64,000 nucleotides of DNA. Source: Phycisphaerales bacterium (GTDB lineage Bacteria; Planctomycetota; Phycisphaerae; Phycisphaerales; UBA1924). The DNA lies in contig JAJDCZ010000042.1 of the NCBI GenBank assembly GCA_029260555.1, positions 1 to 64,000 on the forward strand. The letters run 5' to 3'. Made by a program: the position numbers and the translations under genes. Below are positions 30,012 through 52,943 of the stretch, piece after piece. Numbering within the stretch: the first letter of the stretch is position 1; every line of letters starts with the position of its first letter. Under the pieces are notes generated by a model. That model did not search any database and was not told the DNA's origin. It worked only from the letters and a program-made list of their open reading frames with translations.

Positions 30012-30719
30012 TCAACGCCGGCCTCGGGCTCTTGCCCTGCCGCCTGCAGCATTGGTCTGTGCCTCATCAGGCTCCTGCACTTGTGAATAAAGACCCTTGT
30101 AGATCCAAACCTTCACGCCGATCACGCCATAGGTCGTGTGTGATTCAGAAAAGCCATAGTTAATGTTCGCCTGAAGCGTGCTCAAAGGCAGTGATCCAAG
30201 CCTCGTATCCATGGTTCGGCTCATCTCAGCTCCACCCAGACGCCCGGAGATTTTGATCCGAACACCCTTGGCACCAGCTTGCATTGCACCCTCAGCACGC
30301 ATCTTCACAATGCGGCGGAAGCTGCCACGCTTTTTGAGTTGCTCCGCCACTGCATCTGACACAAGCTGAGCTTCCACATCTGCATTCTTGATCTCAAGGA
30401 TCGAAATCGAAACCTTGCGGCCCGTTATGTACTGCAACGCCTCGGTGATCTTCTCGACCTCAGCCCCCTTGGGACCAATCACCAAGCCCGGCCTGGCAGT
30501 ACGAATGATGACCTTAAGCTCCTCACGGGTGCGCTCGATCAGAATCTCTGCAACCGCAGCGTATGGTGGCTGCTTGTTCAAACGATCAATCAGAAAACGC
30601 CTGATCTTCTCGTCTTCAATCAGCAACTCGCCAAACAACGCCTTGGGAGCATACCAACGGCTCCGATGAGCTTCGGTAATGCCAAGTCGCAGTCCAAATG
30701 GATGGGTCTTCTGTCCCAT
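30012..30719 (-). CDS. rpsC: Ribosomal protein uS3
   Basis: A 235-residue protein of the mRNA entry tunnel. MGQKTHPFGLRLGITEAHRSRWYA opens it; the KH domain carries RPGLVIGPKGAEVEKITEAL (the usual GKGG variant is GPKG); RIVKMRAEGAMQAGAKGVRIKISGRLGGAEMSRT and GVIGVKVWIYKG follow. AAGG precedes the ATG. Confidence 0.98.
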   Translation of the reverse strand: MGQKTHPFGLRLGITEAHRSRWYAPKALFGELLIEDEKIRRFLIDRLNKQPPYAAVAEILIERTREELKVIIRTARPGLVIGPKGAEVEKITEALQYITGRKVSISILEIKNADVEAQLVSDAVAEQLKKRGSFRRIVKMRAEGAMQAGAKGVRIKISGRLGGAEMSRTMDTRLGSLPLSTLQANINYGFSESHTTYGVIGVKVWIYKGLYSQVQEPDEAQTNAAGGRARARGRR

Positions 30720-30779: not shown

Positions 30780-31322
30780 CTATCGCTCTTCCACGCTGAT
30801 CGTCAAATGACTCGTCCGCTTGAGAATCGGATGTGCCCGACCTCGATCCTTGGGCTGAAACCGCTTGATCACAGGCCCTTCATCTACACGACTCTCAACC
30901 ACATACAACGCTGTCACATCTGCATCTGAAAGCTCTGCATCAGCAATCGCTGCATCCAGGGCTTTTTTCAAGTTCACCGCAGCACGCTTCGTAGTAAAAG
31001 TAAGCAGGTTGATTGCTTCATCAACACGCTTGCCACGAATCAGATCCGCCACCAGGCGGGCCTTGCGATAACTGCCGCGATGATGCCGAACCATGCTTGT
31101 GAACAGGCAAATATCCTTGGCCTGAACTCCAAGAGCCCCAGCCATCTGCTGAATATCCGCAGCTTTGCAACGGGGGTGATCGCTGCCCGCAAGCCAGTTG
31201 TTCACCGCACGCCTGGCTCGAGGACCACTCAGCCCCGTACGCTCCACAGCCTGGGCGAGCTGATCTCGCGTCAGACCCGAAGCCATCAACGCCTTGCTCA
31301 GTTTGTTTGACTGCACTCTCAT
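30780..31322 (-). CDS. rplV: Ribosomal protein uL22 with N-terminal XRE-like HTH domain
   Basis: The last ~105 residues of this 180-residue protein are standard L22 (VRHHRGSYRKARLVADLIRGKRVDEAINLLTFTTKRAA, ending RFQPKDRGRAHPILKRTSHLTI). The first ~72 residues are extra and look like a Cro/C1-type helix-turn-helix: LSKALMASGLTRDQLAQAVERTGLS, then RRAVNNWLAGSDHPRCKAADIQQMAGALGVQAKDI, matching the pattern of XRE domains from helix 1 through the closing A-L-G-V. The extension is in frame from an ATG right after the rpsS spacer, with no second ribosome binding site at the fusion point. A DNA- or RNA-binding role for the extra domain is an inference. Confidence 0.93.
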   Translation of the reverse strand: MRVQSNKLSKALMASGLTRDQLAQAVERTGLSGPRARRAVNNWLAGSDHPRCKAADIQQMAGALGVQAKDICLFTSMVRHHRGSYRKARLVADLIRGKRVDEAINLLTFTTKRAAVNLKKALDAAIADAELSDADVTALYVVESRVDEGPVIKRFQPKDRGRAHPILKRTSHLTISVEER

Positions 31323-31420: not shown

Positions 31421-31699
31421 TTACCTGCGAATGCCCTCTTTCTTATTCGTGTGCCCGCGGAAGGTTCTCGTCGGGCTGAACTCACCGAGCTTGTGCCCCA
31501 CCATGTCTTCTGTCACATACACCTCATTGAAGTGGCGGCCGTTGTGCACCTGAAATGTACTACCCACAAACTCGGGCACAATCGTGCAGCGACGAGCCCA
31601 GGTCTTGATCGGCCCTCGCGTGCCAGATTCCTGCTGCTTCATGACTTTCATGTACAGCTTCTCATCAACGAACGGGCCTTTCTTGAGACTCCGACTCAT
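31421..31699 (-). CDS. rpsS: Ribosomal protein uS19
   Basis: A 92-residue 30S head protein that pairs with S13. [22 protein letters not shown] and the tail [23 protein letters not shown] are diagnostic. GGAGG lies upstream, immediately preceded by a perfect ACGGGT/ACCCGT hairpin at 31714-31729. Confidence 0.98.
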
Positions 31700-39909: not shown

Positions 39910-40167
39910 TTTTGGTCCATAATATGCGCTCATGCACATTCCGGATCTTGACGCCCCCTTTTGAACAAAGTATCGTTGAAGTGCGATAGGCGATATTCCG
40001 ATCCTTATATAGTGGGTAAACTGTGCCGTCCAAAGGACTTGCACGAGGCACTATAAAGATTAGTTTTTTGATTTGAGATGTATCTGCAAGAGATGATGTG
40101 TATCTTGTCTAGCAGGTAGATTTAGGAAGCGGCTCAACAAGCAAACCTGATGCAATGGAGTAATATC
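39910..40167. promoter_or_regulatory. Upstream region of the LEPR-type surface protein
   Basis: A 258-bp spacer with a nested stem at about 40028-40052 (GTCC-aaa-GGAC within GTGCC/GGCAC) and the TGTGTATCTTGT block at about 40098-40109 that is also found upstream of hppD. No gene is seen. Confidence 0.35.
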
Positions 40168-41838
40168 ATGGCAAACCCTAAGCCCGATAACAATATGATG
40201 GAGCATCTTGAAGCCAGAAAACTGCTCAGTGGAGACGGAGCATCTCTGGATTTCGAAGCCTTTTATCCAGAAGGATTCGCCAACGACAATATCAGCGAAT
40301 ATGTACCCATCACCAACCCCAATGACTTTGCCATCGATTATGAGCTTTATGCTCAATATGCCAAGGGAGAGCGGGATCAGTTGATTCAGCGAGGCACCAT
40401 TCCCGCCAACACGCGCCGGGGGGTGGTCATTAATGAAGCAGGCCGTCCTGAGACACTTCGAGTGCGCCCAAACGATCCATACTCGCTGGTGCTTCGTTCC
40501 ACAGCACCAGTAGGGGCGACTCTCAGCCATTATGACTTTGGCACAGCCATCGGCGAAACCTTCACCCAGCAGACCAGCACCGAGTGGTCATTTGGCGAAG
40601 GCAAGCGAGGCGGCGCAACACGCAACTTCGTGGTGCTTTACAACCCCTCTGATCAGGATGCAACCGTGACGCTGACAGTCTTCACGGAAACCGGTCAGAC
40701 TCAATCCATGACACGAGTGATCGGTGCCAATCGCCGAGGCGGCTGGAACCTGGCCGCTTCAGGATCACTGCCTCAAGGTGAGTTCGGCATCCGCATCGTT
40801 TCTGATGTACCCATTGTGTCAGCAATCTCAGCTTATGAAACGGATACAAACCAGGGCTTTGGTGCACTTGGCCAGACCGATGGCGGCGCCCTTGCTGGTG
40901 TCATCAATGGCATGAAGATCCGTTCTGACGGTGCCGGTGGCTCAGATGACGACTTTGCAAATGATGGCTCCGGAGATGACAGCCATAACGGCAACGACGA
41001 CAGTCACAATGGCAACGATGACAGCCATAACGGCAACGACGACAGTCACAATGGCAATGATGACAGCCACAACGGCAACGACGACAGTCATAACGGCAAC
41101 GATGACAGTCACAATGGCAATGACGACAGCCACAACGGCGGATCAGGAGACGACAGCAACAACAGTAACGGCGGCTCCGGGCACATCTCAGACGCATTCG
41201 TCAAAGTGCTCAACACCAACGCAACAGATGCAACCGTCACATTCACCTTCATTCCCAAAGCAAGCAACATTGATCCCGCGACCCTCCCACCGCCTCAGAT
41301 CATGACCATCGCCAGCAACTCGCGATCTCAGTTCTCACTTGTGGAACTGTCCGCTCCTGTCAATGAAAAGTTCACTATCGCGTACCGATCTGATGTCCCC
41401 GTCACCGTCACAGCTTCTCGCTTTGAAGCTGCCGATGCCGTCGGTGTTGAAGCGGCCCCCATCGCTGCAACCCAGTGGACCTATGGCGAAGGCTTCATGA
41501 GTCAGAATCGTGCTGGTAACTCTGTGACTGAAGATATCTACATGTTCAACCCCACCACCCAGAACTTCTCAGTAACGATTGAGTTCTTCTTCAACAACTC
41601 CACCAAGATCACAATCACCGAGTCGATGCAGTCGCTCAGGCTGAAAGACATTGAAGTCCATGATCTTCTTGAGATCAGAGACTTCTCAACCCAGTCGTTC
41701 TATGGCATCCGCATCACCTCGCCCGTACCCATCGTTTCCACAATGGAGCACTGGGACCGTGATCAGGGTGGCGGCTTCAGCACGCTGGGTATGCCCGGTG
41801 GCACCATCGTTGATCTCATCGATGTCCTTGCAGTCTAA
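40168..41838 (+). CDS. LEPR-motif secreted or surface protein with NDDSHNG repeats
   Basis: A 556-residue protein. It opens with MEHLEARKLLSGDG, a form of the LEPRxLLS N-terminal signature of planctomycete secreted or surface proteins. Two similar beta-rich halves follow: FVVLYNPSDQDATVTLTVF and a later IYMFNPTTQNFSVTIEFFF, each preceded by a WSFGEGK or WTYGEGF strand. The halves are joined by about eight exact NDDSHNG repeats (residues ~270-325), rich in Asp and probably calcium-binding. GGAG is seven bases upstream of the ATG at 40168. A terminator follows within the neighbouring thiE gene. Confidence 0.82.
   Translation: MANPKPDNNMMEHLEARKLLSGDGASLDFEAFYPEGFANDNISEYVPITNPNDFAIDYELYAQYAKGERDQLIQRGTIPANTRRGVVINEAGRPETLRVRPNDPYSLVLRSTAPVGATLSHYDFGTAIGETFTQQTSTEWSFGEGKRGGATRNFVVLYNPSDQDATVTLTVFTETGQTQSMTRVIGANRRGGWNLAASGSLPQGEFGIRIVSDVPIVSAISAYETDTNQGFGALGQTDGGALAGVINGMKIRSDGAGGSDDDFANDGSGDDSHNGNDDSHNGNDDSHNGNDDSHNGNDDSHNGNDDSHNGNDDSHNGNDDSHNGGSGDDSNNSNGGSGHISDAFVKVLNTNATDATVTFTFIPKASNIDPATLPPPQIMTIASNSRSQFSLVELSAPVNEKFTIAYRSDVPVTVTASRFEAADAVGVEAAPIAATQWTYGEGFMSQNRAGNSVTEDIYMFNPTTQNFSVTIEFFFNNSTKITITESMQSLRLKDIEVHDLLEIRDFSTQSFYGIRITSPVPIVSTMEHWDRDQGGGFSTLGMPGGTIVDLIDVLAV
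40972..41140 (+). repeat. Tandem 21-bp repeats encoding NDDSHNG
   Basis: About eight tandem 21-bp units (GATGACAGCCATAACGGCAA type) alternate between AGCCATAAC/AGTCACAAT-like variants at third codon positions, so the protein repeat is exact while the DNA differs by synonymous changes. This points to selection on the peptide as well as duplication of a 42-bp pair. Confidence 0.85.
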
Positions 41839-52870: not shown

Positions 52871-52943
52871 GCCACCTTAGCTCAGTTGGTAGAGCAGCGG
52901 TTTTGTAAACCGCAGGTCCTCAGTTCGAGTCTGAGAGGTGGCT
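52871..52943 (+). tRNA. tRNA-Thr (anticodon UGU)
   Basis: A 73-nt cloverleaf: acceptor GCCACCT/AGGTGGC, D arm with AGCTCAGTTGGTAGAGC, anticodon stem GCGGT/ACCGC with loop TTTGTAA (anticodon TGT), T arm CTCAG-TTCGAGT-CTGAG. The CCA end is not encoded. Its 3' half from 52902 is identical to the attachment repeat of the integrated element, so the functional gene is rebuilt by the left junction. Confidence 0.95.

Follow-up and report, generated by a model that had tools for sequence, protein, structure and literature searches.

Background

Whole extra domains are rare gains for universal ribosomal proteins. An rplV-like gene in a 64,000-nucleotide stretch (hereafter the window) of a Phycisphaerales contig raises the question of whether ribosomal protein L22 has acquired a helix-turn-helix (HTH) domain at its N-terminus, how widely this domain is distributed and what it might do on the ribosome. 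No earlier description of an L22-HTH fusion was found in the open-access papers searched, and the domain may already be recorded in annotation databases. Profile searches, structure prediction, phylogeny reconstruction and rRNA comparison were combined to analyze the fused gene and its relatives.

Results and discussion

The fused gene and its operon setting

The L22 part of the encoded protein (Table 1) scored 112.7 bits against PF00237 (cut-off 28) and 107.9 bits against TIGR01044 (E 2.6e-31, cut-off 73.65), and the gene holds the place of L22 in the S19-L22-S3 order of the S10 operon. An L22 domain starting near residue 75, after a Cro/C1-type HTH of about 72 residues, had been proposed in a first-pass annotation of this DNA; the fusion itself was borne out, and the boundaries were revised to an L22 match over residues 78-177 and an extension of about 74 residues. 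L22 was detected above the cut-off in 378 of 397 Phycisphaerae genomes, as a single copy in nearly all, and in nearly all of the 397 this class-wide search returned no second confident L22. The fused gene is thus taken to be the ribosome's supply of L22.

Table 1. Features of the fused L22 gene and its neighbours, with positions in the window
Feature	Position	Strand	Evidence
rplV-like gene, L22 with N-terminal XRE-type HTH	30780..31322	-	180 aa, ATG start; orthologues compared
N-terminal HTH domain, residues 1-74	31101..31322	-	AlphaFold2; HTH Pfam families across orthologues; XRE structural matches
Helix 2, extended turn and helix 3, residues 19-45, hallmark N42-W43	31188..31268	-	alignments; column entropies
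Post-helix-3 loop, residues 46-53, GSDHPRCK	31164..31187	-	strongly conserved in the window's family
Ribosomal_L22 domain, residues 78-177	30792..31091	-	PF00237 1.1e-32; Foldseek to L22 chains of solved ribosomes
rpsS (S19), directly upstream, S10 operon	31421..31699	-	translation; S19 in nearly all related loci
rpsC (S3), directly downstream, S10 operon	30012..30719	-	translation; S3 in as many related loci as L22

Elsewhere in the window, a tRNA-Thr (TGT) at 52871-52943 on the forward strand was the sole tRNA and the sole Rfam match. Repeated NDDSHNG-like units at 40931-41197, inside a predicted ORF at 40150-41838 (+), are not part of the fusion finding.

Distribution of the fusion

Close relatives of the locus belong to Phycisphaerales and, more widely, Phycisphaerae (Planctomycetota). 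When the 397 class genomes were searched with a profile of the extension, 138 gave matches, and the fusion is counted in about 137. Two matches were weak (E 1e-4 to 3e-4) and lay in other long frames, one in genome G037 and the other an additional match in G017; the remaining matches were frames of the size of an L22 fusion, and every one that was fetched was fused to L22. The fused genomes fall into the window's family (f1), where all 44 genomes carry the extension on L22, a second family of the same order (f4) and an order-level clade within the class (iii, the third clade below). Closed genomes in the third clade hint at cultured members. Fused and unfused L22 are both present in the window's order. 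Outside Phycisphaerae, the phylum set of 392 genomes gave just three weak matches to the extension profile, all in other frames, and none of 27 L22 loci from outside the class had the extension. Beyond the phylum, a motif scan of genome contigs returned no matches except two weak ones in Pseudomonas. A survey of planctomycete rplV had been advised by the first-pass annotation; a planctomycete origin was supported, with about 137 of 397 Phycisphaerae genomes fused and the sampled L22 of the phylum outside the class lacking the extension.

Identity of the extension

Taken alone, the window sequence gave a weak HTH profile signal (HTH_31, 0.015; NsdA-family HTH, 9.4e-5), and its extension fell under the cut-offs of the Pfam HTH families. 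Of 27 orthologue extensions, 19 matched HTH_31 (best 3.1e-8) and 17 matched HTH_26 (best 3.8e-7); six members of the third clade also matched HTH_3, HTH_26 or HTH_31, one of them over the HTH_3 cut-off. A PDB profile match to 1knz (E 0.0069) was dropped as weak.

AlphaFold2 predicted the full-length fused L22 with a mean pLDDT of 93.3 and a pTM of 0.83, and the extension alone with a pLDDT of 92.7. Five helices were predicted in the extension (residues 5-15, 19-26, 34-45, 54-64 and 68-71), and the strand that follows helix 5 (72-81) runs into L22 without a linker. The five-helix fold, with helices 2 and 3 as the HTH, is that of XRE domains in both the model and the structural matches. Foldseek ranked the extension nearest to XRE regulators and to phosphonate enzymes that bear an XRE domain (E from 0.017 upwards, with no match at E < 0.001), and VIA-align gave Z of 8-10 to C.Csp231I, SinR, P22 c2 and 434 Cro. 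The same program aligned 60 residues with 7o81_AU of a collided 80S ribosome (Z 7.8, rmsd 1.9), a chain that we take to be EDF1, the row being titled by the ribosome entry. Because Z of about 8 is common among small helical domains, we base the XRE assignment on profile and structure jointly, and because many XRE domains reach such a value, the match to EDF1 is unspecific. Judged from the orthologue profiles and the predicted fold, the L22 extension is an XRE-type HTH domain. For residues 1-75, for which a structure check had been proposed earlier, the AlphaFold2 fold was XRE-like, and HTH Pfam families were matched across orthologues.

Start codons and selection on the extension

In all 27 fused orthologues a GTG or ATG start lies 78-84 residues ahead of a fixed L22 reference point, and among 86 fused sequences 55 begin with GTG and 31 with ATG. 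At the junction the window has an ATG (MVRHH...) five residues before the reference point; it is without a Shine-Dalgarno-like sequence and is unconserved among the 27 fused orthologues; in these, only scattered starts occur around the usual L22 N-terminus, with no conserved ribosome-binding site. The upstream start, found at a fixed distance, is therefore the conserved one. One start and no ribosome-binding site at the junction had been reported at first pass: the absence of the site was upheld, and the single start was not, given the junction ATG. In one f4 genome (locus L021, G039) the L22 frame is broken inside the HTH domain, with the N-terminal half in another frame, likely an assembly indel.

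For close pairs with enough changes, dN/dS was about 0.03-0.16 in the extension, and the L22 domains of these pairs gave about 0.01-0.05. Two pairs so close that few changes separate them gave 0.3-0.5 in the extension; most of the other high values were set aside, since they arose from divergent or misregistered pairs compared unaligned or, again, from very close pairs differing at few sites. By these ratios the extension is under purifying selection, and the fused L22, as far as sequence can tell, is a genuine and conserved two-domain protein.

Origin and history

In a tree of S19, S3 and L2, from which L22 was left out, the fused state requires three changes, leading to f1, to f4 and to clade iii (f13, f18, f20, f23, f24, f26 and f27), which is well supported. 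The L22-only tree, with too few columns to settle the history, did not reject a clade of f1 with f4 or of f1 with iii (AU p 0.85 and 0.61, respectively). A profile built from f1 alone matched the extensions of the other two clades at averages of 54 and 52 bits (range 24-70), and the best non-L22 match of an f1 plus f4 profile in the 397 genomes reached 24.4 bits. Since the three clades have extensions closer to one another than to other XRE domains, a single origin of the HTH extension appears likely; it may have been followed either by repeated losses or by transfer between lineages. The joining of the HTH to the L22 N-terminus is placed within the class Phycisphaerae.

Surface conservation and charge

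Column entropies over the 86 sequences showed N42-W43, G46 and P50 to be nearly invariant, and N42 and W43 are conserved across the three fused clades. Position 41 in helix 3 is mostly R or K, and the helix-3 positions equivalent to DNA-base contacts are variable and in part hydrophobic; positions 37 and 38, which our alignment matches to base-reading residues of 434 repressor, are among the variable ones. The loop RDHPRCK is conserved in f1, where its conservation is inflated in that many f1 sequences among the 86 were fetched by the loop motif itself, and it is also the majority form in an unbiased set of 24. The mean net charge of the extension was +4.5 in the window's family, the other means being +6 and +3.9; within the third clade it falls to as low as -4, so electrostatic RNA binding would not be universal. 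This pattern of conservation seems to suit a fixed partner more than changing operators.

Comparison of 23S rRNA

The 23S genes were located by a DNA probe, and 19 fused and 15 unfused genomes were compared over E. coli positions 1-1973. No insertion, deletion or clean base change tracked the fusion in this region; columns 815, 1192 and 1209 were weakly associated with it, and not cleanly. A specific rRNA site is therefore unsupported by coevolution, and there is no sign that the domain makes up for a missing rRNA helix. The segment at E. coli 271-300 is shortened in all f1 members compared (L176, L183, L184 and L186-L194); as a fusion-linked change it was rejected, being absent from the other fused clades. 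Some genomes of f4, of the third clade and of unfused members of the class carry inserts of about 300-470 bases near E. coli 541-555, 1951-1965 and 1171-1185 that resemble intervening sequences or introns.

Proposed role and alternative explanations

We put at slightly better than even (roughly 0.55) the probability that the HTH belongs permanently to the ribosome, where it would hold rRNA or a neighbouring protein, and is not a transcription factor, an explanation framed only after the conservation pattern was known. HTH-L22 would enter each 50S subunit with the HTH as a permanent surface domain, predicted to pack directly on the first L22 strand. The face of the old recognition helix, with the basic residue 41 and N42, might hold a fixed partner together with the loop after helix 3. 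Candidate partners beside the L22 N-terminus would be 23S rRNA around H2/H19/H24/H46 or a neighbouring protein; in C. acnes, an N-terminal extension of uL22 anchors H2, H24 and H46 as well as the H19 tip (PMC10085706). The mode of holding would resemble that of the Mbf1/EDF1 HTH, an XRE-type domain wedged between two small-subunit rRNA helices, h33 and h16 of 18S rRNA (PMC7486125). More tentatively, with the odds somewhat against it, the repressor-type HTH may as a permanent part of the 50S in some Phycisphaerae occupy a fixed rRNA or protein site and alter assembly, tunnel-exit traffic or the stress response.

Roles on DNA were also considered. Free L22 might use a working DNA-binding HTH to repress other genes or the S10 operon that encodes it; ribosomal proteins are known to exert autogenous control, and the domain has both the fold and the sequence of a DNA-binding XRE repressor. 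However, the helix-3 positions equivalent to base-reading ones are variable and some are hydrophobic, helix 5, which often serves dimerisation in XRE domains, passes directly into L22 in the model, and no inverted repeat or k-mer resembling an operator was shared by the S10 upstream regions of 20 family genomes, where a degenerate site could escape the k-mer test. We regard such autoregulation as distinctly unlikely. A role of the HTH in tying ribosomes to the nucleoid or in coupling translation with transcription is very improbable: the XRE fold and net basic charge would permit non-specific DNA binding, but the conserved N-W pair and loop indicate a specific partner, and a tether on all ribosomes would seem costly. 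The first-pass proposal that the HTH links translation and transcription finds no support: the base-reading positions vary, no shared operator was seen upstream of S10 in the 20 genomes, and the HTH passes directly into L22. Its companion proposal, an RNA-binding surface added to the ribosome, seems the better fit.

Instead, a protein factor (a chaperone, or one for targeting or quality control) could dock on the HTH close to the tunnel exit through protein contacts; we think this unlikely, and the H2/H24/H46 region is not a docking site known to us. A conserved surface motif without a matching rRNA change would suit a protein partner, and uL22 is one of the tunnel-exit proteins, the exit serving as a docking platform (PMC5071890); against this, the L22 N-terminus of C. 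acnes faces H2/H24/H46 (PMC10085706). Cleavage or non-translation of the extension, with mature L22 beginning at its usual place, is scarcely credible: an ATG does lie near the junction in the window, but the junction lacks a conserved start or ribosome-binding site, the extension is under purifying selection, and the predicted fold is continuous without a linker.

Comparison with known systems

In two families and an order-level clade, a core large-subunit protein bears a domain from a repressor family that is very common in bacteria. Compared with bacterial uL22 (rplV; PF00237, TIGR01044), the fused protein has a complete L22 domain, the usual S19-L22-S3 order and apparently the sole confident copy, but it carries about 74 extra N-terminal residues, the XRE-type domain, and the usual start is gone. 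NF008917, an L22/unknown domain fusion, matches the fused L22 only in its L22 part. The lineage-specific additions to uL22 in C. acnes and the chloroplast are comparable, but are not described as HTH in the parts of those reports available.

With XRE/Cro-C1 domains (PF13560, PF13443, PF01381) the extension shares the five-helix fold and the pattern LA...NW..G...P...DI..LA.ALGV; it differs in a longer, length-variable turn between helices 2 and 3, in variable base-reading positions and in its fusion to a ribosomal protein. The HTH has probably been re-used to hold rRNA or a partner on the ribosome surface. Fused and unfused relatives within one class offer a natural contrast for testing the re-use of a DNA-binding fold on the bacterial ribosome.

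Mbf1/EDF1 likewise places an XRE-type HTH on the ribosome, where it binds rRNA (PMC7486125), but as a separate small-subunit factor of colliding eukaryotic ribosomes and not as a domain of a core large-subunit protein. The N-terminal MBF1/zinc-ribbon domain is absent from the fused L22, in which the HTH occupies the N-terminus from residue 1 and L22 comes next, and there is no evidence that the L22 HTH descends from Mbf1/EDF1. By analogy, with Mbf1/EDF1 as the eukaryotic example of a DNA-binding fold turned to the ribosome, the fused L22 of Phycisphaerae may serve as a bacterial test case.
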